Source: Gracilariopsis chorda
Taxonomy: Eukaryota; Rhodophyta; Florideophyceae; Gracilariales; Gracilariaceae
DNA: 34,615 nucleotides
NCBI GenBank assembly: GCA_003194525.1
Contig: NBIV01000454.1
Coordinates: 1 to 34,615 of the forward strand
Direction: 5' to 3'
Shown: positions 549-28,514 of the stretch, in pieces
How the letters are laid out: each line of letters begins with the position of its first letter
Position numbering within the stretch: the stretch's first letter is position 1
Position numbers and translations under genes: made by a program
Notes under the pieces: model-generated
The model's database searches: none
Told to the model about the DNA's origin: nothing
Seen by the model: the letters and a program-made list of their open reading frames with translations, nothing else

Positions 549-3002
549 ATGGACATCAGGACTGTGCCTTGGAACGACGGTCGTGGCAATCAAGAAGAAT
601 ATGCGGAAGCCGTTTCGCTATGGAAGGCGTTTCACGATACGTTACCGGACTCGAATAGCAACAATATTTCGAAGGAAGTTCGTGTAATTATGTTGCAATC
701 ACAGCTCTATGGTCGAGCACGAGATATTTGCAAAGCAATCCCCGTAGAAGTTATACGATCAGAAGACGGAGCAGATGCTATCGTAGAGGCACTGTAAAAG
801 AGAGACCCACTCGCCATAGTGTCGGATGTTTTTCAAGATTATTTGTCGCTTATGAACACGAAGACAAAGCATAACGAAAGCTTTAAGAATTTCGAGCTCA
901 GGTTTCAGGCTCAGATATCGAGGCTCAACGCGCATGGATAGGAAGCTAAGCTTTCTGAATCGCTCGTGGCATTCGCCCTTCTAGCTCACGCCGATGTAGA
1001 CAACCACCAAAGAGTATCGGTTCTTGCGAATGGTGCGCCTAGGGACTCCAGCCTTAATGCGACTTCAACCACGAACGATTACTTGAAAGCAGTCTCTTAC
1101 GAATCAATAGCTTCGGTTCTCAGGCAATGCGACATAATGAAGAGCTCTGGAGGAGAGCCATCGACGAACCCGCTCTCTGCAAACTCAGCGCCCACCAACT
1201 CGCGTTCACATAAAAGGAACAACCAAGGGCACCGTAGAACCCCAGAACAGATCGCCGATCTAAAGAAAAGGACCACATGCAATCGATGTGGCAAGTATGG
1301 ACACTGGGCTAAAGATCACAAACGAGATGGATCGTTCAAGCCTATATTTAAATCTTTCGATGCACCTCCCAGCAGAGACAACAGAGAAAACAATGTTATT
1401 ATTCTCAATATTGCTGAGTTGAGTTCACTCGAATCCTCAACTCTGGAAGACTTCGTAGGACCGCTAGTCGACAACGCTGCACCGTACAGTGGGATTGGTC
1501 TTTTTGAGCTTCGTCGGATTGCTGAATTTATCTGTCCTGAATGGAATGGGACTCTTGAGGCTCTACCCAGCGTGGTCCCAGACAGACCGTTCTGCCATTA
1601 CGGTACCGGAGAACACAAGATCCCGGGAAAAAAAATACTTGGATCAATCATGATCAAGGCACGAACCGACGAAGGGAAGATTGTGTGTATCAGACATTTG
1701 GTAATCGAGGGGTCGTTTCAATGGGTTGTAGGACGCAACGTTACCAACAACTGCGATATCTTGCGAATCAATCAACACCTATTGAAGCTTCCATCAGACG
1801 AAACCGGCAAGTGCCAGGGACACATCACGTTAGTCGACAGAGATATGCACACCTACATCCCACACTCCGTATTTACGTACGAATCCGAGCAAACGACAGC
1901 TGAGAACGAAACTGCACTATTCTGTGCTATTGCGCATCTTGATGGCGACTTTATTGGACGACCGTGGAAGGATTTACAGAAAGTAGTGGACAAGGTCCAC
2001 AAACATGTTTGCGGACACTCTAGCTACTCCGACATCAGAGTTCTTTTGGAACGAAATAACGTTTCGACCACACAGGTGGATAAGTATCTGCAATATGTAC
2101 TGGAGAAGTGTCACGCCTGTAGAACCACTGCGAAGCCGAAGCCGTCAAGGAAAGTCTCTCTCAGCACAATGTCTAGGTCCTTTAACGAGGTGGTATGCTT
2201 GGATCATCTGTTTCTGGAACAACACGCTGTGCTGCATATTATGGATTCTGCTTCGAGATATTCTGTAGGTGCTGCAGTTGAAGATACCTCAATGTTCAAG
2301 GCCATCACGGTCTTTGATTCGCACTGGATAAAACCCTTTTGGACACCACAGGACGTTGCTTACGACCGTGCATTTGAGAATAACGCATTCAAAAAATACC
2401 TTCAGCATCAAGACATAGAGGCTCGACCACTCCCCACTCGCAGACATAACAAGAATGTACTGGAATCCAAACACAAAATCATCAGAGAGGTGTACTTTCG
2501 ACTCAAGGAATCGACAGAACTTGAAACAAACGACCAGTGTAACTCCCTTTTAATTCAGCAGGCTATCAGGGTTACCAATGATCTATACGGCAATGATGTA
2601 CTTTCCTCTCACGAACTGGCAAAGAGGTACGCAAGACCAGTAGCGAATGATGGCAAGCCTAAGCTGGTACCACAAGAATTGATAGATGCCCACCAGACCC
2701 TCCTGGCCAAACGAAAGCTGACATTGATACTCCGATCCAAAAAGTTCACAGAAGGCCCAATAGCAGCTGGAGACATGGTGCAGATTTTCGTCAAAACCCA
2801 GCAAGAGAAGAAAGTCAAATGGACTCAGGACAAGCCAGTGTTGGCATTCGATATTCAGAGCAGAACCGTAACCGTACCTGGAGCTAAGGGGAAAAAGATC
2901 AGCGCAGCTATCGAGAACGTTTGACCGGCAGTGTGCGACAACGAGCTAGCTACGGCTGTGCAAGATGCAATAGACGAACTGGATAGAAATTTGGACGAAA
3001 TT
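549..3002 (+). pseudogene. copia gag-protease-integrase (5' part of gag-pol)
   Basis: The ATG at 549, 37 nt after the PBS, is the first plausible gag start. The frame is broken by TAA at 795-797, TAG at 939-941 and TGA at 2922-2924 but keeps phase throughout, so decay is by point mutation only. Gag (549 to about 1380) ends in a zinc knuckle at 1278-1319, CNRCGKYGHWAKDH, whose last Cys is His. The protease region has LVDNAAPYSGIG at about 1467-1502, with D-N-A where an aspartic protease has D-[ST]-G. Integrase has a HxH...CxxC zinc region (CHAC at about 2109-2120) and catalytic D (2202), D (2364) and E (2463). The frame runs on to 3002, where the gypsy element interrupts it, and continues in phase at 12586. 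Confidence 0.9.
2998..3002. repeat. gypsy target-site duplication, left copy (AAATT)
   Basis: AAATT at 2998-3002 is repeated exactly at 12581-12585. Joining the copia sequence across one copy restores the reading frame (codon ATT at 3000-3002 followed by ATA at 12586), which proves that the gypsy element inserted into the copia pol gene. Confidence 0.97.
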
Positions 3003-3829
3003 TGTGGTGCAATGCCCCAAAGGGGAAAAACACCGAAAGACGTTCGGGATCTTCCTCTCACGAGGTGAACCCAGTTGGGTAGAGCTCTCCCAGAGGTGTC
3101 ACGGCGAAGCCGGTTTGTAAGACCAGGGACAACTGTCGCGACTCACGCAGGGAGGTGAAGGCGAAGAATCGGTATACGCGTGAGCGGGGTGTGATCCTCA
3201 GTAGAGGTATGTTTCCACGTTAGTGGGGGTGTGTGAGCGGATGCGCACACGAGGGCCGCGGATAGCGGGAGGTGCTACCCTAAAAAGGGGAAGAAGGAAG
3301 GGCGGAGAAGAGGAAGAGAGGACGAAGTGAGTCGCGAGGGCGACGAACAGATACGGCGATGCCGGTGGACAAGACTCCCTATACAGTGCGAAACACCAAT
3401 ATAATTGGAACAATTATACTCCCAAGGATGGGGTTCTTTAAATGTGCAAGGGGGTTAGATGTCCCGTGGTTTATGGCGTTTCCCTCCAAGAAGGAGTAGA
3501 GCACGTGCGCAAGCGGCAACAACTAGAGCCAATTCCCCAGGTTGGGGTCCCTTGTTGGGGAAAGTTTACTGTTGCGACGGCAGTGCGCCGTCGCCCTAAG
3601 TACTAGCTTCCCAGAAATGGGTGTGAAAATAACAAATAATATTAACTAAAATGCTCCACATTTCGTGGCAACATCCACTACTGTGGCCAACCGCCAATTG
3701 ACCCAAAACCGTGTCCCACGTGTCCATATCCACCATAGTGGGGCGTAGTTCATATACACACTACACAACCGATGACATCGGGAAAGCGTTCAAGTACCAA
3801 GAATCCCTTCCTGAGGGCGTTGCACTACA
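3003..3829 (-). repeat. gypsy 3' LTR (element sense is minus)
   Basis: This is a direct repeat of 11752-12580. I count about 54 substitutions in 827 aligned bases (about 6.5%) plus a 2-base indel near one end. The LTR holds about 16 perfect short hairpins, for example CCCCAAAGGGG at 3015-3025, CCTCTCACGAGG at 3054-3065, an 8-bp stem at 3574-3594 (arms GCGACGGC and GCCGTCGC) and CCCAGAAATGGG at 3610-3621. I see no convincing TATA box. Confidence 0.95.
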
Positions 3830-3842
3830 TATCCCCCCCTAA
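3830..3842 (-). promoter_or_regulatory. gypsy polypurine tract
   Basis: In element sense the bases directly before the 3' LTR read TTAGGGGGGGATA (seven G, plus-strand C at 3833-3839). This is the expected place and composition for plus-strand primer formation. Confidence 0.8.
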
Positions 3843-4084
3843 GACGGGAAAACGACCGCGGACGCGGAGGGTTCCCAGACGAAAATGGGTGATAAAATCG
3901 CGTGCGCCGTTTCCGGTTCTCCTTTCCTGGCATAGCCAGCTAGTAAAGTATAGTGTTGTTGGGAGCTAGCTGCTCCCTTGAATAAACTTACCCGTTTAGA
4001 ATGGTGATTCTCGTTTTAGTTCCCCGTCTTCGACGGACCTAGCCTTGTTATCCTTTCCTATCGCCCTCCGTTCGCGCGGCAACG

Positions 4085-4981
4085 TTACTCAACTTGGGCA
4101 TTAACCAGCGTAACTGGGGCTGCAGTTCCCGTTTGACGGTGGTATCGCACGACCTGTGATCGTGGGAGGTGTTCAATTGGCTCACACGTAACCCCACTGG
4201 GGTCGTACCCGTACCAGCGGACGCGGTATTGTAGAATACCATCCTGGTCCCAGGTCTGTCCCACAAGTCGGTCTACTACGAACTCTCGTTCGTAGACCTG
4301 CCGGCCGTGCCGGGTGGTGGTTGTACCTCCTTGCGGGGGCTGCCCGCTGTGAGGTATAATGTCCCTTAGCAGGGTGTTCGGCGATAACTCCGGCGTTGCC
4401 GTGCGCTGTGATAGCGGCCGCTGCTCATGCGGGAAGATATCCCTCAAGAGGGTGTGTGGTGCCACGGTTTTCACCGGCAAGTCATTCCCCATTGGGGCAG
4501 GTTCATTCCTGCTTTCGCGGTATTGCGGGCAAACCGCCAGTCGGCGGGAGACTTGGGCTCCGCCTTCGCGGTTGAGCTCACGAACCGCGAGTTTGCAGGG
4601 AGATGACCGCTCCTGCAGAATCGGCATTTCCACAATCCCCTGGGGGGTCCCGTGCAACACGGTGATTGGGTGGCAAACCGCCTCCCTGCCAGGCGCACGA
4701 GCGCTCTGCACCATACGTTCCGGCGATGCCGTGGTGTCCCCGGCTATTGACGGGTTGCCTGGGGCTAACTCCGTTACACCGGTATTTTGGTCAAAATTCC
4801 CCTTTGGGGGGTGCCGGGCAGGTGCCGATGACACCCTTCTCAGGGGCTTGGCCACTAAGTGCGGTGCAACGTCTCCACGCGGAGGAGCAGCGTCCGGTAT
4901 GAGCAGTCTCGAGCGTGCGATGGCGTGCGCATTTTCCGAGTTCCTCGGTTCTTCCCCGCAGCGTTGCGGGAGGTGGCGCAA
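4085..4981 (-). CDS. gypsy pol C-terminal region with chromodomain
   Basis: This is a 298-codon open frame at the end of the element with no ATG at its 5' end; it is a segment of pol, not a separate gene. Residues 230-282 (nt 4136-4294) form a chromodomain: REFVVDRLV, then QYRVRWYGY, then TCEPIEHLP. In chromoviruses this domain follows integrase and steers integration to chromatin carrying methylated histones. The position usually held by Trp in the T-W-E-P motif is Cys, which may weaken an aromatic cage. The preceding 220 residues are low-complexity and Pro/Arg-rich. They contain a repeated peptide TLLRDI(F/I)PH (about residues 178-186 and 203-211) that coincides with hairpin DNA. It is in the same frame as integrase, but several stops lie between them (4982-5365). 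Confidence 0.8.
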   Translation of the reverse strand: MRHLPQRCGEEPRNSENAHAIARSRLLIPDAAPPRGDVAPHLVAKPLRRVSSAPARHPPKGNFDQNTGVTELAPGNPSIAGDTTASPERMVQSARAPGREAVCHPITVLHGTPQGIVEMPILQERSSPCKLAVRELNREGGAQVSRRLAVCPQYRESRNEPAPMGNDLPVKTVAPHTLLRDIFPHEQRPLSQRTATPELSPNTLLRDIIPHSGQPPQGGTTTTRHGRQVYEREFVVDRLVGQTWDQDGILQYRVRWYGYDPSGVTCEPIEHLPRSQVVRYHRQTGTAAPVTLVNAQVE

Positions 4982-5362
4982 ATTATTCCCCGGAACGGGG
5001 CTTCAATTCCGTCGACGACGGGAGGTGTTCCCGGCGCTTGCGGGCCAGGGCCTGAAGCTTCGGATGCGGCTTGGCTGCCTTTCTCCCCAGGTTGGGTGTG
5101 GGGATTTCTCAGCGGCGCTGGTGTATCTGGGCGCCTCTTCTCCGCAAGGCGCGGGTCTGATCGACCTGATTGAACCGCTTCCGCGGGGACTACCGCCAAC
5201 GGCGGCTTCGAGGCATCGCCCTGCTCAGGGGATTGAGGGCGATCGTCGCCGTACTCCTGTAACGGGGATTCCTCCTTGACAGGGGTGTGCGGTAGCTGCG
5301 TTTCAACTTCCCGTTGCGACGGCGATATCGTTCCTCGAAAACGAGTGTTCTCCTCCCCCTTC
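4982..5362 (-). pseudogene. degenerate linker between gypsy integrase tail and chromodomain
   Basis: The integrase frame ends at TAA 5363-5365 and meets further stops before reopening at 4981. Other frames are open here for 67-114 codons but look like low-complexity Arg/Pro/Gly translation of hairpin-rich DNA. The simplest reading is that the pol tail was once continuous and has been shifted and stopped. I cannot say which frame is ancestral. Confidence 0.5.
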
Positions 5363-7575
5363 TTAGACGGAGCGCCGGGATAAGGGATAACATTCCCCGC
5401 CTGGCGTTTTGCCTGGAGCAGACGTGGTAGGGGCGGGCGCTGAGAGGCCTGAATTACCCGGCTGAGCCGGTGAGTCCGACAGAGTCGGTAGGTCTGAGAG
5501 TCCCCGGCTGGGGTGTGGTAGTACCGTAGGCCTAGTACTCCCGTATGGTTCCGGTGTTGCAGAGTCCGTAGAAACGGGATTGCCTGGATCCAGGACTACC
5601 TCTGACGAGGGAGGAGGGGCAAGGACAACACGATCACGGGAAATCCGTTCGTGCGTGTCCCCCATCTCTACCACGACAGTGTCGGTGTTTACACAGATGA
5701 CCTTGAACGGTCCATCCGCCACAGGCGAGAGTTTATGGCGCTTCTCCTGTTCCGGGTTGTAGTACTCCTTCCTGATGAAGACGTAGTTATTCGCCCGAAT
5801 CGGGGACGGTTTCCCTCGCCAGCAAGCCTCAAAATCCCGCTTGTAAGCGGCTTGGGCCCGTGCCATCGACATCCGCACAGCGGGGACCAGCTTGGAAAGC
5901 CATTGCTTCCATTGCTGCCGGTAGATACCCACAGATGGGAAATTGTCCAAGGTAGGTTGGGGTTCCAGCACCACAGGCGGGGTTGTTCTAGATAGAACCA
6001 ACTCGAATGGCGAAACTCCGGTAGTCCGGTGTACCTGCGTATTGTACGCGTAGGTTACCGCATCAGCATACATGTCCCAGTTCGTTGGGTTGTCCGTGAC
6101 GTAGGAACGTAACGCCGCGAGTAACGTCCAGTTAAACCGTTCAACGTGCCCATTACACTGGGGGTGGTAGGTATTCGTGAAGAAGTTCTTGACATCCAGG
6201 ATGCGACAAACATCCTGGAAGAACTTGCTCACGAACTGTTTCCCGTTATCGGAGAGCACCTCCACAGGGGGACCGTAGAGAAAAATCGAGTGCGTTACCA
6301 GAGCCTGGGCCACCATGAGAGCGGTTATCCTCTGAAGAGAGACAGTCCGTACCAGCTTAGAAAAGCGGTCGGTAATGACAAGTAGAAACTTGTTTCCACG
6401 TTTCGTGGTGAGTAGTGGTCCGAGAATATCGATCACGACAAACTCCAATCGCGCCGTTGCAGGGAATAGTTTCATCTTCTTCGCATTTTTGCGGAGCTTG
6501 ACGCGATTCTTCGGGCATTCGCTACAAAACCGCACGGTTGCGTAGCAATCCACCGCCATGGCGGGCCAATAGAAATCCCTTCGCAGGGTTAGGTAGAGTT
6601 TCCTCCCACCTGGGTGACCTCCAATGGGGGCGTAGTGTGATAGATGTAACACCCGCGACTGCAGGGAATGAGGTACCACAATCTGTGGACGGGCTTCGAC
6701 CTTCATTACGAGGTAGCCTTTGTCGTTTACCCTGAAAGGGAGATCTTCACCACCGTTAAGACGGGCACGAATCCTCGTACAGAATGGGTCGCCGAATTGT
6801 TCTCGGATCATTTCTTCCGGTGATACCGGTACAAAGTTTCCCGGTAACGGGTTCTCAGATTCATCTCGCGATGTGAGTAGTTCGTCAAAATCAGCATCCT
6901 CGTCCCAGTTCTCTGGCCCAGCCTCGACGGCATATTCTGGATCATCCGGGTCTATAGCCATGAAACATGGGACTTCATCATCCTCCGTTGGGAGTGCTTC
7001 CCCACTTGTGGGTAACGGCGACAAGGCGTCGGCTTGGGTGTTCTGCGCGCCCTTTTTATAAATGACTTGAAAGTCATATTCCGCGAGGCGGAGTCTCCAG
7101 CGCATGAGGCGTCCCGACGGGTCGGAGATATTCATTAACCACCCCAATGAGGAATGATCCGTGTACACGGTGAAGTGAACTCCCATAAGGTAGGGGCGCA
7201 GAGTGGTCATTGCCCATACGACGGCGAGGCACTCTTTCTCCGATACGGAGTAGTTCCGCTCATGAACATTGAGCGATCGCGACCAATAACCAATGGGATG
7301 TCGTTCCCCCCCGGGGGTGGTTTGAAAAAGAGCACACCCGACTAGGTAGTCGCTCGAGTCCGTATCTACGGAGTATGGCAACCCAAGGTTTGGGAGATGT
7401 AGGATTGGTGCTGATGTGACAGCCTCCTTCAAGGAGTTAAAAGCTTCCGATTGCTCGGGCGTAAATGTTCCCAGTTTTGGGGGGTTCCCCTTTCGCAACA
7501 ACGCGTTTAGGGGCGCCGCAGTATCTGAAAAGTTCGGGATAAACCGTCGATAGACGTTGACCAGCCCCACAAAAA
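5363..7575 (-). CDS. gypsy pol: RNase H and integrase (open 735-codon segment)
   Basis: The open frame (to 7570) is entered by a frameshift from RT, not by its own ATG (the first codon is GTG). RNase H has the acidic set in VDTDSSD (residues 68-74), SEKECLA (E112) and YTDHSS (D138). Integrase has a His/Cys zinc region (H312, H319, C349, C352) and the catalytic triad D381 (VVIDILGP), D441 (LSDNGKQF) and E477 (NGHVERFN), with the DD35E spacing of Ty3/gypsy. After integrase comes a 'VRKEYY...' type tail (about residues 590-660) that binds the SH3-like GPY/F region in related elements, then a Pro/Ser/Thr-rich stretch ending at TAA 5363-5365. All catalytic residues are intact, in contrast to the RT immediately upstream. 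Confidence 0.92.
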
Positions 7576-8433
7576 GCGCAGTTCCGTTTGAGTACGGGGT
7601 TCTTTCGCCTCAGCGAGGGATTTGACTCGAGCTTTCTCGATCGCTAACCGTCCAGGACGGATAATGTGACCCAGATACTTCACAGTATATGTGAAAAACT
7701 CGCATTTCCCCAACTTGAGGGTAATTCCCGCATCGCGGAGTACGGTCAGCACGTCTCGGACGTGAGTGAGATGGTCATCCAGCGAGTTGGAGAAGATGAT
7801 AATACACTTAAAGCGGTTGAGTAGAATATCTACTGCACGCTGAAAGGTGGTGGGGGAGTTGGTTAACGCAAATGGCATCCGCTTGAAGCGGTACGTTCCT
7901 GCGTGGCAGGTGAATGTGGTTTTGTCGCGATCCTCCTCTCTGACAGGTACTTGCCAATATCCCCAATTGGCATCAAGGGCCGTGAGCACGGTGGCGTCTC
8001 CAAGAGAGTCAATACACTTGTCCATACGAGGGATAGGGTACGTGTCCCTAACAGTCACGGCATTGACCCGCCGGTAGTCGACACAGAAACTACAGGGTCC
8101 GTCGGCCTTTAAAGCCAGTACAACTGGGGATGCCCAGGGTGATTGAGCGGGCTCAATCACACCTGCGCGGAGCATCTTGTCCACTTGGGACTGCTCCTCT
8201 TCCCGAGCTTTCGGACCTGCCCTGTAAGGGGGTTGTGCAACCGTTTGCGCACCCGGGATTAAATGGATCCGGTGTTCCGTTGCATTGATCTCGCCAAGCG
8301 AGCCATCCCACATTGTGGTGAATTCCCGTAACATGGTACGGAGTTTGTCGCGGTGCGACTCTGGCACTTGGCTAAAGTCCAGCGCTTCAAGTGCCTTTTC
8401 CGGATCAATCCGGTCGTTGATCGATGGAGCATT
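7507..8433 (-). pseudogene. gypsy pol: reverse transcriptase, YxDD segment missing, bounded by two frameshifts
   Basis: RT is recognised by VIEPAQSPWASPVVL, FCVDYRRVN, LTALDANWGYWQVPV (motif A, D132 counting from 8367), YRFKRMPFALTN and VKYLGHIIRPG. Between LLNRFK and CIIIFSNSLDDHL, where Ty3/gypsy enzymes have about nine further residues including Y-L-D-D, nothing is present. The junction is at about nt 7804-7809 and the frame is kept, so this is a short in-frame deletion of the catalytic loop. The frame differs from both neighbours: a one-base shift near 8432 separates it from the protease linker, and a one-base loss in a T run (plus strand A run at 7571-7575) separates it from RNase H. Confidence 0.9.
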
Positions 8434-8971
8434 ACGCTGAAGTAGCGGTTTCCTCCCCCTCCTTAGACTTGACGTCTTTGGACGGCGGGGCGAACTCCTC
8501 AGAAGAGGTTATAGCTCCAAGTACATTGGCGGCTGTCATCTTGGTTGGCAGCACTCCCATAGAATGGGGCGTTACATTCCCAATTACTTGGTGTTTTACC
8601 AGATACTGGGGGTGTTTGCCAAGGTTGGCAACCAATATCGGGAAAGGAACATCCGGGGAAATGGAGAAAATTCCATTAGCCAGCGCCAGCTGGGATTTCT
8701 CGTACAACGAGGCGAGGGGTTGTATAACCCGAAGACCGTGTTAACGGGAATTTACCTGCACCCAGACTTGGGACTCAGCCAGTATAGAAACCGAGGCAGC
8801 GACGCGGAGCTTGGTGGACTCGCGGGACGCGGGTGGTGGTTCCTGCGCAGCAGGGAGCGGAACTTGTTTCCGAGAGGACCGCTTTAGCGGGCGGCGAACA
8901 ATCGGAACCGACGATCCGTCGTCAAGTTCTACACGCCTGAGGCGGGGCCTGATTGCGTCGACAAATCTGTC
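8434..8971 (-). pseudogene. gypsy pol: protease-RT linker with stop codons
   Basis: This continues the protease frame but is interrupted by TGA at 8972-8974 and a TAA near 8743, then is open to 8432. Between the stops it encodes a basic and Pro-rich segment followed by a stretch with VPFPILVANLG and HQVIGNVTPHSMGVLPT, as in the pre-RT region of related polyproteins. Two stops plus the frameshift at 8432 make this copy unable to produce a gag-pol fusion reaching RT. Confidence 0.75.
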
Positions 8972-9487
8972 TCAGTAATCACATCCCAGTATCACTGGTG
9001 CTGCCAATGAACGGCAAACGATGAAGTCCAACTTCACCACAGAGGTACCAAGTGTCACGACGAGGTCCACTGTGCCCACCGTTTGTAGCGGATTGTTGTT
9101 CGCATCCGAAATGTCGGGGACCGCGTCAGAGCGGATACGAGACCGCACAAGCGGGGGTAACAATGATTCCACAACAAAGTTGGGGCCTGCACCTGTATCC
9201 AGGACGGTGAGAAACCTCACCATAAACTGGGGATCAAGGCCAAGGTCGGCATAGACCATGTAATTGCGCTTGGCCAAGACCAAGACTCTACCCGGAATCC
9301 CGGGATTTTTACTCCGTATCCATGGGCGACGCAACACACCAAGGTGCGCAGAGTCCGCGTCAGCGGTGTCTTTCCTCGAGAGGACTTTCACCGGGGAGCG
9401 AGGCGAGGACGCCTCCGGCGCCAACAGCTTCGTTCTTGAGGACGCCTCTCCCAAAGGGGAGACTCCCTCAGTTAGTTTTCCGCCTTC
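8972..9487 (-). CDS. gypsy pol: aspartic protease
   Basis: The active-site motif VLDTGAGPNFV lies at nt 9199-9191 (D-T-G, intact) and the second signature AAPVILGCDY is at the C-terminal end, both as expected of a retropepsin. The frame lies -1 relative to gag and overlaps the gag stop: it is open across TAA 9474-9472 and has no ATG at its 5' end, so expression would need a -1 ribosomal frameshift. A candidate slip region in element sense is GGAAAAC, two codons before the gag stop; it is not a canonical X XXY YYZ heptamer. The frame ends at TGA 8974-8972, right after the ILGCDY motif, where related polyproteins continue. Confidence 0.85.
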   Translation of the reverse strand, partial: EGGKLTEGVSPLGEASSRTKLLAPEASSPRSPVKVLSRKDTADADSAHLGVLRRPWIRSKNPGIPGRVLVLAKRNYMVYADLGLDPQFMVRFLTVLDTGAGPNFVVESLLPPLVRSRIRSDAVPDISDANNNPLQTVGTVDLVVTLGTSVVKLDFIVCRSLAAPVILGCDY

Positions 9488-11646
9488 GGCGGTGGGTTGG
9501 TTTCCTCGACAACGAGTGGTTCATCCCGTTTACGGGGGTTTCTATCCGCATAAGCGGGGGTTGCAACGGATGGTTGCGTGATCTCCCGAATCGGGGTGTA
9601 TGAAGCTTGCCGCGCACGCGGGGTCTGTGGCAGGCCATGGGAAAAGTCCGTTTTAGCACGGAGGTAGGAAGCCATCGGGACGGAACGTTGCTCCTCTGGA
9701 GTGAGGGCCTCATAATTTGCCACTAACTTGGCCATATCCTTCAGTGAACAAATACACTGAGGGGAGGTATGGCCATGGGCATAGCACAGGTGGCAAATGA
9801 GAGCCAATACCGCGACACGCGGATTATTATTCCGAGTATCGGAGAAGCGAACCGCAGGGCGGGTGTCAGTCCATCCAGGCCGTTGATAACGGGATTGACC
9901 GTTTGAAAACGGGAGTCGTTGGGGTTGAACCCGACTGTTACCACCGTACAAAACGGGGTCTTCCGTTCCTGTATCACGGGTCATCTCCGTCGTTGACGGT
10001 AAATCACTGGTGGGTATGGACACACCATCCTCCTGCACTAAATGCACGGTATCAAATCCCTGTCCAGGGTTCCCGTCCGCATTGAGCGGGAGTGAGGAAG
10101 CTTCGCTTTCTAGCAACAACGCCTTGGTGGATTTAGACCGATTGTTCGGAGTTCTTGCACGAAGTGCATCCCCTTTCACTCGGGCGTGTTGGACCAGCTC
10201 GAGGTAGGTGATCCTCCGCTTGTCCTCCCGATAACGCATAACTAAACTCCGGATTGCCGGGTCAAGACCATCAATGAACATGGTACTGCGCTCCCCAGCG
10301 GGGTATACGTTACCACATCTGTGGAAAGCCTTGTTAAGGCGCACCGAGTAATCAGTCTCGATCTCTCCAGCACGCTGGCTTGTATCTCGCAAAGCAAGGA
10401 TAGCCTGCTGAATAGCGGTGTTTGTGGCGTAGGAGCGCAGAAGATAATGCACAGCCTCCGCCCAGCAAGTAACTCCTCCCTCGGAGGCACGAGAAGATCC
10501 TCTGACAGAGGTGTATTCGTCCTCCGCCACTCCCCGTAAGAAATACGGTAAAGCCAAATAGCCTTGTCCCTCATTCATACCGAGGATATTGGCCTCCGCT
10601 ACAAAGCGGGATAGGAAATTCAGTACTAGGACTGGGTCCTCTCCAGTAAAATACTGGTTGCGGAGCGAGAGCTGCATTCGCTTAATGCATTCTCGCACCT
10701 TTCCCGTACCACAGGGCGTACGTCCAAGTGACGAGTCTTCGAGCCGGTAGTACCGGTATGATAAAAGCTTCCGGTAATCCGGGTTTGTCGGTTTCAATTC
10801 CCGAAGACCAGGGTGTCTACTCCCCTTCTGGCGAGTTCGGACCACACATTCAGTGGCCGATGACCGCTTCGAGCGGGAGGAGTAGCCTCGCTTCTCGTCC
10901 TCCGAGTCGGAGTCCGAGGAGCTCGAGCTAACCGAATGGTTTCGGGATGAGTCCGACGATGTCGAAGAACCGGAGTCCGAATATTTTCGGTGGTGTTTCC
11001 GTCGATGACGGCGTTTCTTCTTCCCAGCAAGCTGGTCGTTGTGCGATGCCTCGTTTACCGGATCATCCGGGGATGGTTTGTCCATGAGTACGAACTGCTC
11101 CAGCGTCTCCAGGCGGGCACCAATCCGATCAAATCGGGCTTCAACTCCTTCGATGAAGGTGGCGGGTTGTCCCATACTCTCCAACACGGAGTTGAAGTCA
11201 GACCGTAACATACGGAGTTCCTCGGCGACCTCCTTTACGGGGGTTGCCAAGACCACCTCTTGGAGGGATTTTAGTTCCCCTACAAGGGTGTCATGCGCGG
11301 TCCACAGAGCGCGGACCTGGGATTCCAGGGGAGTCCCCTGGGGGTTGTTATCGCCCGTTCCACGGGAGCTTAAAGCCGCGACAGCGGGAGCAGGCCGGGG
11401 CGCCTGGGGCACTGCGGCAACAGCCGGAGTCGATGCTGCATTCCCCTGCGGGGGTGATAACGAGGGCAAAAGGAGGTTCCGGGGTTCCCGGTCGGGGGTA
11501 TCATTCCGCGATGAAGCGGCGCCAGCACGGCTGGAACTTGTCCGTATAGGGATACGGGGTACGAACCGAACTTCGGAAGTGTCCGCGTTGTCGCGGGAGC
11601 GACCATGCGTAACCACTGGATCCGCATCGGAGGGATTTCTCGACAT
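9472..11646 (-). CDS. gypsy Gag, intact
   Basis: This is a 724-codon frame with a true ATG at 11646, about 90 nt after the PBS. The N-terminal third is disordered (Pro/Ala/Arg), followed by a Lys/Arg patch and a long Ser/Asp RS-like run (about residues 205-265). A retrotransposon capsid region follows, recognisable from YFTGEDPVLVLNFLSRF through ERSTMFIDGLDPAIRSLV. A zinc knuckle CHLCYAHGHTSPQC (CX2CX4HX4C, nt 9754-9795) lies near residue 618-631. It is the best preserved protein of the element. At its 3' end (9480-9621) the codons run through at least seven perfect hairpins. The gag stop is TAA at 9474-9472 and protease follows in the -1 frame. Confidence 0.92.
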   Translation of the reverse strand: MSRNPSDADPVVTHGRSRDNADTSEVRFVPRIPIRTSSSRAGAASSRNDTPDREPRNLLLPSLSPPQGNAASTPAVAAVPQAPRPAPAVAALSSRGTGDNNPQGTPLESQVRALWTAHDTLVGELKSLQEVVLATPVKEVAEELRMLRSDFNSVLESMGQPATFIEGVEARFDRIGARLETLEQFVLMDKPSPDDPVNEASHNDQLAGKKKRRHRRKHHRKYSDSGSSTSSDSSRNHSVSSSSSDSDSEDEKRGYSSRSKRSSATECVVRTRQKGSRHPGLRELKPTNPDYRKLLSYRYYRLEDSSLGRTPCGTGKVRECIKRMQLSLRNQYFTGEDPVLVLNFLSRFVAEANILGMNEGQGYLALPYFLRGVAEDEYTSVRGSSRASEGGVTCWAEAVHYLLRSYATNTAIQQAILALRDTSQRAGEIETDYSVRLNKAFHRCGNVYPAGERSTMFIDGLDPAIRSLVMRYREDKRRITYLELVQHARVKGDALRARTPNNRSKSTKALLLESEASSLPLNADGNPGQGFDTVHLVQEDGVSIPTSDLPSTTEMTRDTGTEDPVLYGGNSRVQPQRLPFSNGQSRYQRPGWTDTRPAVRFSDTRNNNPRVAVLALICHLCYAHGHTSPQCICSLKDMAKLVANYEALTPEEQRSVPMASYLRAKTDFSHGLPQTPRARQASYTPIREITQPSVATPAYADRNPRKRDEPLVVEETNPPPKAEN

Positions 11647-11734
11647 GAGAAAATACAGTTACGACGGGAAACGATCACGGAACGTCCGGTAAATAAAAAC
11701 AAACCTCGTAAGAGGGAAAACAAAAACCAATTCT

Positions 11735-11748
11735 AAGTCAGGAGACCA
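11735..11748 (-). promoter_or_regulatory. gypsy primer-binding site
   Basis: Three bases after the 5' LTR end the element-sense strand reads TGGTCTCCTGACTT, starting with the TGG that pairs with a tRNA CCA end. The matching tRNA would end in GTCAGGAGACCA. I cannot assign the amino acid without the host tRNA set. Confidence 0.65.
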
Positions 11749-11751
11749 CTT

Positions 11752-12580
11752 TGTGGTGCAAAATGCCCCAAAGGGGAAAAACACCGAAAGACGTTCGGGA
11801 TCTTCCTCTCACGAGGTGAACTCAGTTGTTTAGAGCCCTCCCAGAGGTTTCACGGCGAAGCCGGTTTGTAAGACCAGGGACACCTGTCGTGACTTGCGCA
11901 GGGAGGTGAAGGCGAAGAATCGGTATCCGCGTGAGCGGGGTGTGATCCTCAGTAGAGGTATGCTTCCACGTGAGTGGGGGTGTGTGAGCGGATGCGCACA
12001 CAAGGGCCGCGGATAGCGGGAGGTGCTACCCTGAAAATGAGAAGAAGGAAGGGCGAAGAGGAGGAAGAGAGGAAGAAGTGAGTTGCGAGAGCGACGAACA
12101 GATACGGCTATGCCAGTGGACAAGACTCCCCATACAGGGCGAAACACCAATATGATTGGAACCATTATACTCCCATAGATGGGGTTCTTTAAATGTGCAA
12201 GAGGGTTAGATGTCCCGTGATTTACCGCGTTTTTTTCCAAGGAGGAGTAGAGCACGCGCACAAGCGGCAACAACTAGAGCCAATTCCCAAGGTTGGGGTC
12301 CGTTGTTGGGGAAAGTTTACTGTTGCGACGGCAGTGCGCCGTCGCACTAATTACTAGCTTCCCAGAAATGGGTGTGAAAATAACAAATAATATTAACTAA
12401 AATACTCCACATTTCGTGGCAACATCCACTACTGTGGCGAACCGCTAATTGACCCAAAACCGTGTCCCACGTGTCCATATCCACCATAGTGGGACGTAGT
12501 TCATATACCCACTACAGAACCGATAATATCGGGAAAGCGTTCAAGTACGAAGAATCCCTCCTTGAGGGCGTTGCACTACA
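11752..12580 (-). repeat. gypsy 5' LTR (element sense is minus)
   Basis: This is an 829-bp direct repeat of 3003-3829 with about 54 substitutions between them. Differences fall preferentially in hairpin loops: CCACGTTAGTGG versus CCACGTGAGTGG, CCCAAGGATGGG versus CCCATAGATGGG, and CCGATGACATCGG versus CCGATAATATCGG. No unambiguous TATA box was found on the minus strand. Confidence 0.95.
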
Positions 12581-12585
12581 AAATT
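12581..12585. repeat. gypsy target-site duplication, right copy (AAATT)
   Basis: Exact copy of 2998-3002, directly abutting the CA-type end of the LTR. Confidence 0.97.
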
Positions 12586-14607
12586 ATACATGAACTGGAA
12601 CAGAATCCGGGGTCTCCCAATCAAAACTCAACAGAACCAGAAGTAACAGCAATCCATGAAAAAGATCCCGTAGGAGTGGAGAACGAACCTGACTGCATTG
12701 GACCAAGGCTACCGAAGGTGGGTGATAGGATCGAAGTGTATTGGCCTATGGACAACACATTTTACAACGGAACAGTAGATAATCACGACGCCAAGACCGA
12801 CAAATACTCGATCCACTACGCCGACGGAGATAAAGAACATCTCAGGCTGCAAGAAGAAGTATGGAACTATGTCAAAGACGACACCACAATTAATGTTCAG
12901 AATGACAGCCACACGGAGACGATCGCTCCAGCCACGATGGAAGCAGCCGAAGTAGAGCTCTCACCCGGACAAGAGTGGGAAAGTGTGCAGCAGGATCTCA
13001 CAAAAGCTTATTTCAAGGCGTTTGGTACCGAAGAGTTCATGTTACACCAATCTCAAGGTCTACCGCCGTTCACAACACAGAAAGCGTACGAGATAGAGGA
13101 GCAATCTTTTAAGAAGACAGTAAGAGATGTTCACGTGTCGCAGGTACCGAAAAAAGCGAATATTGTCACGAGTCATGTGTTTTACAAGGTGAAGAAGTGC
13201 GACGACAACACTCTGAAACTGGAGGCTCGTATTGCTGTATACGGACACAAGGACAGGTACAAGGATATTCTCAAAACTGACTCAGCAACTTGCCCTCCTG
13301 TGGGTATTAGAATCTTGCTTTCCCTCGCGACAATCAATCGTTGGACTTTGGCAAAAATCGACTTCAAGAGCGCCTTTCTACAGACGGAGGCTCAAAGAGA
13401 TGTGTACATGATACTCCCACGAGAATGCAGCACACGTCATCAGCACTACTGGCTTTTACTCTCCGCAGCATACGGTTTAGCAAACGCAGGAGCTAAGTGG
13501 GAGCAGCTCAATAACGATGTACTTCGTGGATTTGGATTTCTCCAGCTCGTATATGTACCACAGTTATTGTACAGGATGGAGAATCAAGCAATCGTCGCAG
13601 TAGCCGTCAAGGTAGTAGACGACATTCTTTTCGGTGGGTTTAGAAATCAGTTGTCAGCAGTAATCAAGAGAATTCAAGAAGACTACAAGTTGGGAACTAT
13701 CGTGTATGGTCCTGGGCAAATCAATTTTTACGGCCTTCGAATAACTCAGTATGAGGATTTTACTATATGCATCGACGGAGAAGAGAAGTTGGAAGGATAC
13801 GAAGCATATTCTATCAGTCGAAACAGAAGAAAAGTGCAGGAAAGTTCACTTAACAGCATCGAGCTTGGGGCATTCCGATCCCTTAACAGCTGCATTGGAT
13901 GGCTTGGTGTTTCCGCAAGTCCGTTTTGTTCTTTTGCTGCGAGTAACCTACAGCAAAAAGGTCCATCGCCCACTGTGAAGGATATGATTGCGCAGATTAA
14001 TATGTTAAAATCGTTGAAGAAGAAGGGTACATCTTTGAGGTTTATCAGGCCGTTAGAAGGTAAGACGTACAAAGTTTCAGTCGTAGTATTCTCGGATGCC
14101 AGTCGAACAGATGATTATGGCCAACTTGGGTTCGTCGCAGGACTATTATTTGGAGAGCTATCGGAGGACTCGGTCATTCATGTCGTTGCATGGGGTTCGC
14201 ATAAATCTCGCCGACCTGTAAAATCTATAGGTTCTGCAGAAACTTTAACAGCTGGAGAAGCTATCGATCAGGGGAAAGTGTTGGCGAAGGCTCTTAGTAC
14301 TTTACTCGGTATTTCTGTTGGACTATGGATCATTGTGGACTCCAAAGATCTGTACGGAACACTTTCTACATGTCGCAATGCTGCAGACCGTTCAATTAGA
14401 GCTGATGTAAGCGTGATTAGATATGAGTTTGAAACGCGGAACATAGATCGCATGATATGGATACCAGGAAAACTCAATTATGCCGACCCGCTAACGAAGA
14501 CAGACAGCCCTCTAAGTTCGTCTTTGGAGCTAATGCTTTATGACGGTTGCATATCTATGGATTTTGCAGGAGCATTATGGAATAGTTCGAACAAGTCAAC
14601 AGGTTAG
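12586..14607 (+). CDS. copia pol 3' part: Tudor-like domain, reverse transcriptase, RNase H
   Basis: This continues the frame of 549-3002 across the gypsy insertion and is open to TAG 14605-14607; the upstream codons 12562-12585 belong to the gypsy LTR and target copy. After an acidic linker, nt 12715-12867 encode a Tudor/agenet-like module (VGDRIEVYWPMDNTFYNG, then HYADGD, then EEVW). RT follows with IDFKSAFLQTEAQRDVYM (motif A), LLSAAYGLANAGAKW and VKVVDDILFGG (catalytic DD at 13618-13623, with Val where many copia RTs have Tyr). RNase H is marked by VVFSDASR, SAETLTAGEA, IVDSKDLYG and LNYADPLTK. This half has no stop codons, unlike the gag-integrase half. Confidence 0.9.
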   Translation: MHELEQNPGSPNQNSTEPEVTAIHEKDPVGVENEPDCIGPRLPKVGDRIEVYWPMDNTFYNGTVDNHDAKTDKYSIHYADGDKEHLRLQEEVWNYVKDDTTINVQNDSHTETIAPATMEAAEVELSPGQEWESVQQDLTKAYFKAFGTEEFMLHQSQGLPPFTTQKAYEIEEQSFKKTVRDVHVSQVPKKANIVTSHVFYKVKKCDDNTLKLEARIAVYGHKDRYKDILKTDSATCPPVGIRILLSLATINRWTLAKIDFKSAFLQTEAQRDVYMILPRECSTRHQHYWLLLSAAYGLANAGAKWEQLNNDVLRGFGFLQLVYVPQLLYRMENQAIVAVAVKVVDDILFGGFRNQLSAVIKRIQEDYKLGTIVYGPGQINFYGLRITQYEDFTICIDGEEKLEGYEAYSISRNRRKVQESSLNSIELGAFRSLNSCIGWLGVSASPFCSFAASNLQQKGPSPTVKDMIAQINMLKSLKKKGTSLRFIRPLEGKTYKVSVVVFSDASRTDDYGQLGFVAGLLFGELSEDSVIHVVAWGSHKSRRPVKSIGSAETLTAGEAIDQGKVLAKALSTLLGISVGLWIIVDSKDLYGTLSTCRNAADRSIRADVSVIRYEFETRNIDRMIWIPGKLNYADPLTKTDSPLSSSLELMLYDGCISMDFAGALWNSSNKSTG

Positions 14608-14629: not shown

Positions 14630-14956
14630 TATGTAATGCAAGTACAAAAGGTGGCTTGCTTGCATTTGATTTGGTTCGATGCATAGGTCGTTTTGAATTT
14701 CGTATGTGGTCATTTTCGTAGTCACACTCTTGGGTGATTATTACGTTGCTATGCAGAGGTTGCGAGCTATTACATGGCAGGGCTATTACGATTGCGTGGC
14801 TACTGGATTAATGATTAGGGCTGACTCTCCTCCTTTGGAAAGGACTATATAAGGACCTAACTGCGATACTCGTGGAATAAGGTTTAGTCAAGCACAACAG
14901 AGGACAACAATAAAGCGTGCTTCAGTTTATCCGTTCGTTTATCCATCGTTTTCATT
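14630..14956 (+). repeat. copia 3' LTR
   Basis: This is a 327-bp direct repeat of 171-498. TATA box TATATAAGG at 14846-14854 and AATAAA at 14909-14914 are conserved. It is followed by the ATGAT target copy at 14957-14961. Confidence 0.93.
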
Positions 14957-14961: not shown

Positions 14962-17055
14962 GGTGGGGTTTAATAATGTGTCTCATGCTCCGCAAGGCAC
15001 AATGACAGTTACACCAGATCTGTGTCTATGATGCCGAGAGTGCGGGGTGGTAGGTTGAGTTAGCGTAAATCATGCCGTGGAAGAGTGGGCGTCAGTCGCC
15101 CTTCGCGGCTGTAGCATCTGACGTAGCTTATCACTTCTGGCCACCATCGTACGTTGTACTGAACGGGAGGGAGTAGCCCTGGCACGGTCCTCTGTAACAA
15201 GGACTCATGGTGCTTACTAGCTGAGCTGTGGTCGCTCATTTGCTTGCCTAGGGCACATGGCTGCAGGTGTTGAAGTATTGATAGTTTCGATCTGCAGCTC
15301 GCTGCCACTACATACGTGTTGGTAGCAAGAAATGGCAGGCTACGTCAACCTGCGCACAATATGTCCTCGGCCCCTGTAAACTAGTTTTCTTTGAAGCAGT
15401 GCTTTCTGTTTGGGGCATGACAACTCTCGCCAACAGTATAACACGACATCCAGACTACCCTCACCGCCCCAAGGCAAGCCTCTCAGCTATGAACAAACCG
15501 AGATCGAGTGCCGTGTAAGTTATGTACCCTTCGCAGAATGCTTTGCAGAACACTTATTTGTGGTAATAAAGTGGTTCATGGGAGCCCGCTCCACTTTGAA
15601 CATTTCAGGAGAGGCGGGACTGATCATTTTCTTCGCTATTCAAGGAAAGATATTGATCAATCTCATGCTTTGAAGTGATTAACAAATGACTTGCCCAAGG
15701 ACATCTCCTATTTTTCCAAGAGCCGCCGTAAAGCAGCAGGGTCCGTGTAGTCTGCCTAAGCGCTACGACTGAAGAATGACGACTTCAAAGCAATGCCAAC
15801 TTCTGTCAATTGACATAAAATATTATAATTCGATGGGCCCACCTGTAATTTTGCGTCGCAATAGTGCTCAGACTGGTTGTAGCACTGCGACCATCTGCAA
15901 ATTCGGGGTCCACATACTCTAGCAAACAGTGGGCGAATAGGATGTCGAGAAACGCTAGCATCGTCATCGTTGCTGAGATGGCGTAGCACTTTGGCCTCAA
16001 GTGCCTTCCCACTACAAACGCTCATTCCTGAAACGTACACTACTAGTTGCCGTATCTTGCACCGGAAGAGTAAACAAAGAGCTTATACCGAAGGGTATCT
16101 CGTTTTTCCACATAGTCTGCGATAATATTCTTTATAGATTGCGCTATTGTATTCACAGACTTGTGGTTCCTAATATGCGGTTATTGAAGCCGGACGGTTT
16201 TTGATAGACTTGCATCTGTTCTTGTGGCGAATGCTTACAAGTAAGAAAGCGTTACCAAGGGAGTACACTTTAAACGTGCAAGCTTACGCGCACGTAACGT
16301 GTATGCCAGATCGCAATTGCGCGCGTGACGATGCAAAATTACCGGCTTGAGACGACCAGGCAGATGCGAGGCATTTGTACAGTCGTATCATATCAAAACA
16401 TAACGAAGGTAGCAATGTACCCTTGAATCTGTTCCTCAGTCTTTGCCGTTCTGGGCATATGTTACCGTCTTGTGAATTCTCATCTGCTCTTGTGCAGATT
16501 TTGGCGACACCCACTGGACTGTGTAATGCTTTATAGTCAAAGGGGGACTACTTAGTCCCCCTGTACTAAAACTCCTCAATTGGACATATATCCGCAAACT
16601 ACAATTCACGAGAAAAATTCAACACCGTGACCCTCCTTGCGTAATCTTTTACAACAACCTCAAGACAATGGCCCTTCTTGCGTAATCTTGTGCATTGCGG
16701 TTACAGCCTCTTTGTTTGCCTTTACGTGTACCAAGTTGGTACACGTACTACCAACCTGCATCTCCCTACCATCTTCATTGTAAACTGCTCGACATAAGTT
16801 TGATATCACTGTATATGCGTAGAAACCAGCACATTTAGGATAGCAACCTGTTTCAATAGTGTGCAAAGAGCGCCTTGCCCAAGAGGAGAGAGTTCACAAG
16901 AGCCAGCGAACAATTTCAGATGTGCCTCGTTCATGTGTTTCGGTCAAGCCGAGATGAATACCCTTGGGGCTCCTAATTCTGGGAAGTATCTCTACTATCA
17001 CCACAATATTGAATGACAACCACGCATCGCCCTCATTGCGTGTGACTGCCTAGAA
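14962..17055. other. 2.1 kb without a recognisable gene
   Basis: Only frames under 100 codons, none with a motif I recognise. Structures seen are the 22-bp palindrome at 16541-16562 and a short direct repeat: CTTGCGTAATCTT occurs twice within about 50 bp around 16635 and 16677. I see no tRNA, rRNA or transposon protein here. Confidence 0.5.
16541..16562. repeat. 22-bp palindrome
   Basis: Arms AGGGGGACTA (16541-16550) and TAGTCCCCCT (16553-16562) are perfect 10-bp complements around a 2-nt centre. It stands alone in AT-richer DNA about 500 bp downstream of the minus-strand membrane-protein gene. It might be a terminator-like or protein-binding site, but nothing in the sequence decides this. 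Confidence 0.7.
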
Positions 17056-18447
17056 CTATGTTCTCAGCATAAATCCAAATATTTCGGTCCCATCATTGTC
17101 GAATCTCCACCCCAGTTCCTTTGATTCGTCATTTCCTCTTGCAAAATCCTCCACATGGTGCGTATCGCTGAAAAACTCTTTCCATGCCCAACGAGAATCC
17201 ACGCCATCCTCCATACCCAACGCCACTGCCACAATCCAAACAACTACAAGAACTCCGCATATGATTAGGCTTGGAACGACCCCCATCCGAGGTCTAGTAT
17301 AGTACGCCAGCGGATCTTCAATCATGTCTAGATAGAAAAACCGATCTTCATTAGAGTACTCTCCACGTGCCTGGCCGGACGGAACTATCACCGAGTTGAT
17401 CGCGCCCATCAAAAACACTGGCATCACTCTATGTGGATCATTCCACGGACCATCTGATACGCCTGGTGCGTTCCACAGACTAGTACCTGTTACGTCTAGT
17501 TTGCTTATATCGAGAAGAAAAAGCAATGCCATGTTTCTCCCTCCGTCAACAGTGGAAGTAGGGGACGAAATATTCACTATTTCCCATGTGCGAACTGTGA
17601 CGTTTGCTCGGTTAAGTCTGGATGACACCACGTTTGCAACCTCTTCTTCGCCTTGATTAGTCATCGCAGAAAAGAAAGCCCCGTTATCCATCATCACAAC
17701 TCCTACTTTGTTGTACATGTCGAATACGGTTGCGTCATCTCGAAGCGTCGCCGTAATACCAACCACCCTGTTGATGATGAGAGAAATAAAGGCCTCGCCC
17801 GATTCACCGAACTTGCCGCCCGTTTTCAGAAGCGAGGCGGAATACCCAGTACACGCCTGTATATATGCTCGTGATTCAAACCCAGCCTTCTCGGCTATGC
17901 CTCCCATATTATTGCAGGTGTTAATCGGTACAGGAAATACAGACTCACAACCTCTATCTTTGAACTCAAATACTGGAACTGTGCCCAGATGTACGTCGAA
18001 TACCTTCTTTTGTCCGGTGGAGAGAAAAATGAATATAAACTCCATGCAAACTGCTACAAAACCCAGAACAACTAGACTGGCGTACGTCCATTTACCCGAA
18101 GTGAGCTGAGGTCCGAAAGCCTGGTTTCGATTCCAAGGCCTCTTAGTTCTAATTCCCCTAAGAACCGTCGCACACAACGTTATCGGATTGGAGCAATTAT
18201 CCACAATATGGCGTCTCAAAACAACTCTCTTACTCACTTCGCCATTCTTTGCGCGAACAGAAACTCGGAATATGATATCTACAAATAGCAGAAGAGAAAA
18301 GGATGTCGTGATTGCTGTTAAAATTGACACTGTGTTCTCTCCTAGATTGAAGTTCATCGGATCGTTAAACTTGTCATCGTAAAACCCGCGAACATCCCAT
18401 AGATCGGCTGCATTTGACCTGTTTCCCGGACACATTGACAATTCCAT
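17056..18447 (-). CDS. predicted three-span membrane protein, family unknown
   Basis: This is an intact 463-codon frame. I take the ATG at 18447 (MELSMCPG); the frame is open a further 11 codons upstream but without another ATG. Counting residues from 18480, hydrophobic spans lie at about 51-72, 133-154 and 401-422. Between the second and third is a domain of about 245 residues with several Cys (for example 178, 189, 210) and N-glycosylation sequons NVT (293) and NIS (303), which suggests that it faces the exoplasmic side. The tail after the last span is short and acidic. I recognise no enzyme or transporter motif. No introns are needed. It is the only long, unbroken, non-transposon gene in the window, so it is probably a host gene. 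A transposon passenger or a member of a lineage-specific family is also possible. Confidence 0.7.
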   Translation of the reverse strand: MELSMCPGNRSNAADLWDVRGFYDDKFNDPMNFNLGENTVSILTAITTSFSLLLFVDIIFRVSVRAKNGEVSKRVVLRRHIVDNCSNPITLCATVLRGIRTKRPWNRNQAFGPQLTSGKWTYASLVVLGFVAVCMEFIFIFLSTGQKKVFDVHLGTVPVFEFKDRGCESVFPVPINTCNNMGGIAEKAGFESRAYIQACTGYSASLLKTGGKFGESGEAFISLIINRVVGITATLRDDATVFDMYNKVGVVMMDNGAFFSAMTNQGEEEVANVVSSRLNRANVTVRTWEIVNISSPTSTVDGGRNMALLFLLDISKLDVTGTSLWNAPGVSDGPWNDPHRVMPVFLMGAINSVIVPSGQARGEYSNEDRFFYLDMIEDPLAYYTRPRMGVVPSLIICGVLVVVWIVAVALGMEDGVDSRWAWKEFFSDTHHVEDFARGNDESKELGWRFDNDGTEIFGFMLRT

Positions 18448-21242: not shown

Positions 21243-21292
21243 TAGCAGCAGCAGCGCCAGCAAAGCGAACTGTGCAATGCCTGCTGCTGCTA
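21243..21292. repeat. CAG/CTG inverted repeat
   Basis: TAGCAGCAGCAG (21243-21254) and CTGCTGCTGCTA (21281-21292) are perfect 12-bp complements around a 26-nt loop. It lies just outside the left 19-bp repeat that brackets the Helitron. CAG/CTG-rich DNA also occurs inside the right end (about 28450-28520), so it may belong to the element's terminal structure. Confidence 0.6.
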
Positions 21293-21315
21293 AGTGGCTG
21301 CTCTTCCAAAATTTA

Positions 21316-21334
21316 CTATAGTGCCAGCCACTCA
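21316..21334 (+). repeat. left arm of the 19-bp inverted repeat around the Helitron
   Basis: CTATAGTGCCAGCCACTCA is the exact reverse complement of 28715-28733. The flanks on either side do not match, so the repeat has a defined length. Confidence 0.75.
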
Positions 21335-23400: not shown

Positions 23401-23542
23401 GCAGTACGGATCCAAAAAACCCTAGCACGCAACAACAGCAACAAAATGCAGAAACCGTCGTGAGTATTGTAGTGCACGCTCTCTCTGGGGGTGGATCTTG
23501 AGCACTTATTAATTTTCCGACTGTTCGCCTCATCTACAATAC

Positions 23543-24242: not shown

Positions 24243-24247
24243 AATAT

Positions 24248-28150: not shown

Positions 28151-28265
28151 TCATATTTCTTGCTTTCTTCATTCATTGACTTAAACTACTTGATTTTCAT
28201 CTTTTCCGTACTCTACGCCCTTTCCTTCCCACCGCTTTTTCTCATTTCTTCACTGTCACTTGCAG

Positions 28266-28444: not shown

Positions 28445-28514
28445 AAACTCAGCAGCAGCACCAAAAAAGCTCAAACCTCATTGGCTGCTACTCCATGTTG
28501 ACTGCTCTTGCTGC

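Follow-up and report, generated by a model that had tools for sequence, protein, structure and literature searches.

Structure of the element

The stretch of DNA analyzed here (the window) comprises positions 1 to 34,615 of contig NBIV01000454.1 from the red alga Gracilariopsis chorda. It contains a complete long terminal repeat (LTR) retrotransposon of the Ty3/gypsy, chromovirus type (3003..12580, minus strand), which belongs to a family designated A and carries ~30 mini-hairpins per kb over its full length. The 5' LTR (11752..12580, minus strand, 829 bp) has TG...CA ends and is 92.9% identical to the 3' LTR (3003..3829, minus strand, 827 bp), with 59 substitutions at 827 aligned sites. The other hallmarks of Ty3/gypsy LTR elements can be read from the sequence: a 5-bp target-site duplication, AATTT in the sense orientation (12581..12585, partner 2998..3002), and a purine-rich tract, AGGGGGGGATA (3830..3840, minus strand), that adjoins the 3' LTR and is presumably the polypurine tract. 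A candidate primer-binding site, TGGTCTCCTGACTTAG, lies 3 nt past the 5' LTR. A hairpin, CCAC-AAA-GTGG at 11747-11757, spans the end of the 5' LTR and the start of this presumed primer-binding site.

All of the coding parts lie on the minus strand. The gag open reading frame (ORF; 9472..11646) encodes 724 amino acids and includes a CX2CX4HX4C motif (CHLCYAHGHTSPQC, 9754..9795) that is seen both in the translation and in the DNA and that we take to be a CCHC zinc knuckle. The Pfam scan of the window ORFs gave no match for this knuckle, which is a candidate RNA-binding module. The ORF at the protease position (8972..9454) is also without a Pfam match. The remaining domains were assigned by Pfam: the reverse transcriptase (RT) domain RVT_1 (PF00078, 7660..8085), the RNase H domains PF17917/PF17919 (7076..7465), the zinc-binding domain of the integrase (PF17921, 6503..6676), the integrase core rve (PF00665, 6161..6439), and a chromodomain (PF00385, 4157..4282). 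This is the domain order of Ty3/gypsy chromoviruses (RVT_1, RT_RNaseH, Integrase_H2C2, rve, Chromo). No Rfam family was found at gathering scores in 2900-12700.

The element is nested in a copia element, as copia-type ORFs are located on both sides of it, with an RVT_2 match in the one at 12562-14607. A direct repeat of 97% identity (176-475 and 14634-14933) probably belongs to the LTRs of this copia element.

Hairpin excess in the window

The preliminary description of this DNA proposed that the gypsy element is saturated with short perfect inverted repeats, a proposal that was to be given up if their density was no higher than in shuffled sequence of the same dinucleotide and codon composition. 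In the element, 4-bp stems with loops of 3-5 nt are 3.3 times as frequent as in dinucleotide shuffles, and arms of at least 5 bp with loops of 1-6 nt were counted 171 times versus 49.9 in 40 such shuffles (z 14.7). The excess depends on loop length; for 4-bp arms it is 3.1-3.4x at loops of 3-5 nt, 1.85x at a loop of 6 nt, and near 1 from a loop of ~10 nt. About 300 hairpins can be placed without overlap (302 with loops of 3-7 nt and 291 with loops of 3-6 nt), and these cover ~40% of the bases of the element as compared with 15% in shuffles.

The excess is not explained by the encoded proteins. Against synonymous shuffles it is 3.15x in gag (105 stems vs 33.4), 2.81x in the RT ORF at 7507-8367 (33 vs 11.7), and 2.73x in the RNaseH-integrase (IN) ORF. 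A strict null that keeps the protein, the codon usage, and all dinucleotides (200 shuffles per sequence, z 8-15) leaves 2.67x in the window gag (105 vs 39.3), 2.43x in the window RNaseH-IN ORF, and 2.89x in another copy of family A (L026). Since the density exceeds even these strict shuffles by 2.4-2.9x, the proposal stands. The enrichment of 4-bp stems in the LTRs is comparable to that in the coding parts, with 3.2x expectation in the 3' LTR (measured over 3011-3830) and 2.7x in the 5' LTR (measured over 11762-12580).

All 29 hairpins listed in the preliminary description are located at the positions given there and have perfect arms of at least 4 bp. They include two neighboring hairpins at 7879..7910 (minus strand) that lie within or next to the TYRFKRMPF segment of the RT. 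The G-rich-first hairpin GGTATT-GTAG-AATACC is also present and starts at 4225. The statement that the C-rich arm comes nearly always first describes a real bias in terms that are too strong: 213 of 291 hairpins start with C, and among arms of at least 5 bp C-first hairpins number 68 versus 11.8 in dinucleotide shuffles while G-first hairpins, at 21 versus 11.2, are also above chance. Similarly, the hairpins are dense but do not form a near-continuous series, the median gap being 13 nt. No clear codon phase of the hairpins was found, and the gaps, judged by their coefficient of variation (0.80-0.97 in families A, B, and C) as the one measure of periodicity applied, do not point to regular spacing. 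An A follows 83 of 189 C-first hairpins on the 3' side versus 273 of 724 GG sites, which in part reflects a general excess of GGA.

The copia loci and the window flanks served as negative controls. In the copia RT/RNaseH ORF that flanks the element (12562..14607, plus strand) stems are depleted (8 vs 23.4, z ~-4), which is the opposite of the adjoining gypsy element, and synonymous shuffles put the window copia ORFs at 0.82x and 0.34x. Outside the gypsy element, the ratios for the eight 3-kb stretches of the window lie between 0.44x and 1.39x. The claim that copia and the flanks lack the hairpin load is thus borne out for the copia ORFs and for most of the flank, but the flanks are not perfectly flat because the stretch at 27600-30600 is raised (1.39x, z 3.0) and so are stems of at least 6 bp in 15001-34615 (40 vs 26.3, z 2.7). 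Elsewhere in the flank, a 474-amino-acid ORF (17056-18480, minus strand) contains hydrophobic stretches by eye and has no Pfam match, and in the right part of the window (32001-34000) C is strongly in excess of G (per-kb skew of -0.575 and -0.379).

Distribution over families in the genome

Loci centered on RT or integrase were taken from the same genome assembly (91.3 Mb, 1081 contigs), and the ratios given for them are relative to dinucleotide shuffles over the locus. Three families carry the excess: family A, that of the window element (20 RT-centered loci, L009-L028), with 3.1-4.1x, family B (7 loci: L051, L052, L056-L058, L060, L063) with 2.8-3.2x, and family C (4 loci: L036, L037, L054, L062) with 3.15-3.4x. 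The 12 D-type loci (L038-L049) reach 1.15-1.40x, seven other gypsy loci (L029-L033, L035, L055) 1.04-1.36x, and L061 0.89x. Three integrase-centered loci with no family assigned are intermediate (L034, 1.8x; L050, 1.5x; L053, 2.0x); neighboring LTRs of other elements may contribute to these values. Scanning related copies, as the preliminary description suggested, therefore places the excess in families A, B, and C of the same genome and not in the other gypsy families sampled, apart from the three intermediate loci. The number of hairpins per kb is 30-34 for these three families, as compared with 22.6 for the phages MS2 and Qbeta together, 16.4 for D, and ~12 for shuffles. Eight copia loci are not enriched (0.80-1.18x over the locus), although one copia ORF, in L065, gives 1.36x by synonymous shuffle.

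Families A and B are C-first in polarity; in a copy of B (L063), for example, C-first hairpins number 34 versus 7.3 and G-first hairpins 5 versus 4.4 in synonymous shuffles. Family C is G-first (L062: G-first 23 vs 6.7, C-first 11 vs 5.7), so the C-first bias does not hold as a general rule.

The Pol proteins are 73% identical between A (represented by L026) and B, 63% between A and C, 57-58% between B and C, and 47-50% between A and D. In the tree, sister relationships are found between A and B (100/100) and between C and a protein from Agarophyton (100/100). Support for the clade that unites all four is only 84/91, and the tree contains several long branches, with long-branch warnings elsewhere in it. 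Named relatives of the RNaseH-IN ORF among the matches listed (120 of 596) are from Chondrus crispus and Agarophyton chilense and are 39-63% identical over 26-95% of the query. Two scans of viral contigs for relatives gave one remote short match each (L059, L096), which were not used.

Some matches elsewhere in the assembly are recorded here for completeness. Two gag segments (G000:C17:30890-32336 and 43433-44879) and an LTR segment (51658-52155 on the same contig) are 99% identical to the window element, other copies being 97% or less; these are either duplicates of the window locus or close relatives. Six copia RT matches at G000:C383:36202-50459 lie ~2680 bp apart (one gap is 2793) and look like a tandem array. 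Pairs of copia RT matches on G000:C530, C468, and C582 are exactly 6044 bp apart and are perhaps tandem copia elements with a common LTR.

Size and grammar of the hairpins

The composition of the hairpins was compared in two copies of A and one copy each of B and C, the latter two over 3 kb. There is no excess of stems that are just 3 bp long (0.92-1.18x), whereas the excess reaches 2.5-3.5x for 4-bp stems and 3.8-5.8x for 5-bp stems. At 6 bp, A still shows an excess (window copy, 19 vs 5.1), but the counts for B (2 vs 1.8) and C (2 vs 1.2) do not exceed chance; in the 3 kb of B or C there were no stems longer than 6 bp, and the counts at 6 bp and above are few. In MS2 and Qbeta, by comparison, the enrichment is 1.9x for 4-bp stems, 6.5x for 7-bp stems, and 20x for stems of at least 8 bp.

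Each family has preferences of its own. The outer pairs have C in 69% of family A hairpins versus 30% of chance hairpins, and C occupies the second position in 56% versus 29% in family B. In family C, the closing base is G in 51% versus 29%, the loop starts with A in 43% versus 26%, and tetraloops account for 55% versus 35%.

Turnover of hairpins and avoidance of stems by variants

Families A and B are 66% identical in DNA over RT-IN. Of the 323 and 237 stem pairs in the two families, 45 are in common, with 4.2 expected by shifting, and 40 of these are unchanged. Covariation, in which both sides of a common pair are altered, accounts for only 5 of the 45, and the pattern is mostly one of turnover. 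Individual hairpins are mostly not conserved between families; their density is.

Variants were examined in the pol region of 28 family A copies (L009-L028 minus L014 and L015, plus L086-L095), with at least 15 copies per site. L014 and L015 were left out as they do not align with the rest beyond ~3.2 kb, and the gag set excludes L074, which nearly duplicates the window copy. The local expectation was taken from sites up to 90 nt away that match in base and codon position. For single-copy variants the number in stems agrees with this expectation (188 of 515, vs 190), while variants present in at least 3 copies avoid stems (41 of 208, where 59.6 would be expected; P=0.002; Fisher test against single-copy variants, 9e-6). 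These P values are approximate because shared sites are partly linked by descent. In an earlier set of 18 copies of A, at non-CpG sites, 18 of 103 variants in at least 2 copies were located in stems versus 122 of 390 single-copy variants. Single-copy variants in the 18-copy set are spread over all codon positions (167:165:205), which fits the decay expected after insertion.

Overall RNA folding

Folding energies were computed for ~2 kb per sequence in 210-nt windows with 30 synonymous shuffles, a procedure that differs from the published protocol for genome-scale ordered RNA structure (GORS). The sense strand of A folds 10.5% (window gag) and 14.5% (L026, 2.1 kb) beyond the shuffles (z -4 and -8). 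The corresponding values are 7.1% for B (z -3.8), 5.4% for C (z -2.7), 6.5% for the hairpin-poor D (z -2.9), and ~29% for the MS2 and Qbeta replicase genes (z ~-13). The two phages therefore have fewer small hairpins and far stronger overall folding than families A-C, and the trait of these families is many small hairpins rather than strong general folding. Sense and antisense folding energies gave no clear discrimination.

Wobble pairs were used to ask which molecule forms the hairpins. There is no excess of G-U pairs inside the stems of the element families. This had been counted as evidence against RNA and was withdrawn, since the 4- and 5-bp stems of MS2 and Qbeta are equally neutral and the test is non-discriminating. 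Extension of stems by an outer wobble pair is at expectation in A, B, and C together (53 vs 53.5) and raised in MS2 and Qbeta (42 vs 32.3), a result that leans weakly away from ordinary RNA folding.

Interpretation

The explanation that we favor, tentatively and at somewhat short of an even chance, is that related red-algal chromoviral LTR retrotransposons maintain dispersed, redundant mini-hairpins along their genomes under selection, perhaps as Gag contacts on the packaged RNA. The hairpins in question would be mostly those with stems of 4-5 bp and loops of 3-5 nt (11-13 nt in total), in LTRs and coding sequence alike. The active lineage would be under purifying selection for the number of hairpins and not for particular ones. 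With less certainty, the hairpins may provide the packaged genomic RNA with numerous weak and mutually redundant sites of contact or condensation for the element's own Gag/nucleocapsid. Such contacts would explain why the grammar goes with the family, why each hairpin spans so little sequence, why LTRs and coding parts are similarly dense in hairpins, and why positions are free to change. Gag is the first candidate reader because each family has its characteristic grammar and because LTRs and coding parts both carry the hairpins. A further-reaching version, which we consider doubtful, is that each family writes a private hairpin dialect (outer CC/GG pairs or G-closed tetraloops) that would be read by its own co-evolving Gag, the whole RNA being a position-free label of self.

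Several results weigh against selection for Gag-binding hairpins. The signal of selection is confined to one family and one region (A pol), and even there variants in two copies occur in stems as often as expected (19 of 51, vs 19.3). At third codon positions the difference between variants in at least 3 copies (35 of 151) and single-copy variants (72 of 189) has a Fisher P of 0.003 but a P of 0.09 by the local null. In gag (12 copies) the proportions of 4 of 14 and 40 of 83 in stems do not differ significantly, in family B (7 copies) they run in the opposite direction, with few sites to go by (7 of 20 vs 31 of 110), and the four copies of family C are too few to interpret. The overall folding of B and C is no stronger than that of the hairpin-poor D, no sense-strand wobble preference was found in A, B, or C, and there is no loop consensus in A or B of the kind looked for in dispersed packaging signals. 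The gag sequences covered are those of family A, and binding by Gag is a proposal. Thus, the preliminary suggestion of selection for a structured genomic RNA finds support for selection in A pol, where variants in at least 3 copies avoid stems, but not for RNA as the selected molecule, as wobble is neutral and there is no clear sense folding preference.

General internal pairing under selection for shielding or stability, with no dedicated reader of hairpins, is an unlikely alternative that shares with coronaviruses the dispersed stem-loops, the poor conservation of position, and the fewer variants at paired sites, as described in PMC7642675. The sense folding of A beyond synonymous shuffles is also in its favor, but B and C fold no better than D and far less than the phage replicase genes, stems of at least 6 bp are at chance in B and C while long phage stems are strongly enriched, and a polarity or grammar specific to each family would not be predicted from general folding. 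Alternatively, the target of selection could be DNA and not RNA, either a single-stranded intermediate (with hairpins in minus-strand complementary DNA, for example) or the duplex. The lack of a wobble excess inside stems, the outer wobble extension at expectation where that of the phages is raised, and the absence of asymmetry among stem variants tolerated in at least 3 copies of family A pol (10 sense-wobble, 15 antisense-wobble) all fit such a DNA-level process. Nevertheless, we regard it as quite unlikely, given that the interior wobble test is blind to the 4-5-bp stems of MS2 and Qbeta too and that we know of no DNA-level process that needs hundreds of 12-nt hairpins.

The two remaining explanations require no selection. 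The RT of the element might switch templates at near-palindromes and perfect them in each cycle, which would give perfect stems anywhere (LTRs and coding sequence), positional turnover, and perhaps an RT signature specific to the family. Sites at which only the minor allele forms a stem are in fact somewhat commoner among variants in at least 3 copies (20 of 208) than among single-copy variants (29 of 515), the changes being unpolarized. This mutation process, which was also raised in the preliminary description, is disfavored and in our judgment improbable: 3-bp stems are not enriched, stems of at least 6 bp are at chance in B and C (on few counts), the polarity differs by family, and variants that were reverse-transcribed and spread to at least 3 copies avoid stems. 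Finally, a G+C content of 55% raises the odds of GC stems, and composition, codon usage, or amino-acid bias could yield hairpins by chance. That these account for the excess is very improbable, as it persists under the nulls that keep dinucleotides, codons, and protein, and D-type loci with equal or higher G+C (0.57-0.58) show little of it (at most 1.40x).

Comparison with known systems

It is not settled in what way LTR retrotransposons mark or condense their genomes. Three related families with the same kind of hairpin load and different grammars, beside hairpin-poor families, form a natural comparison, and contrasting variants found in one copy with those found in several offers a simple means of looking for selection on nucleic-acid structure in repeats. 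If the doubtful reading of private dialects is true, the label of self would be the RNA in its entirety and not a single packaging signal. No report of hairpin-saturated retrotransposons was found among the listed matches of literature searches aimed at such elements, which were judged by title and abstract opening and in which subscription journals are sparsely covered.

The likeness to the red-algal chromoviral Ty3/gypsy elements of Chondrus crispus and Agarophyton chilense was assessed at the protein level, among the matches listed. Packaging of Ty1 and Ty3 is treated in PMC4974528. Yeast Ty3 is likewise a Ty3/gypsy element with a structured genomic RNA; this RNA has been probed and has a well-folded core, and its cis-acting packaging sequences are not precisely defined (PMC11381356, in the sections available). 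Saturation with mini-hairpins is not mentioned in those sections, and the likeness is one of description and not of the Ty3 sequence.

Pervasive selected structure has been described for RNA viruses (PMC7642675). The GORS of coronaviruses consists of hundreds of short-range stem-loops in coding sequence with poorly conserved positions and fewer variants at paired sites (same source). Pairing spread over the genome with no conservation of position was found in the families examined here, and fewer variants at paired sites were found in family A pol only. In contrast to GORS, the present system is a retrotransposon with mostly 4-5-bp perfect stems and a polarity and grammar specific to each family, and in B and C the folding is no better than in a hairpin-poor relative.

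Dispersed packaging signals have been proposed for MS2, and in such systems (PMC6281560) many small stem-loops are dispersed along a packaged RNA, as they are along these elements. Families A and B differ from such systems in having no common loop recognition motif, and binding by Gag is only a candidate function. Family C alone combines a closing G with an A at the start of the loop, and the hairpins of all three families are denser than those of MS2 and Qbeta.

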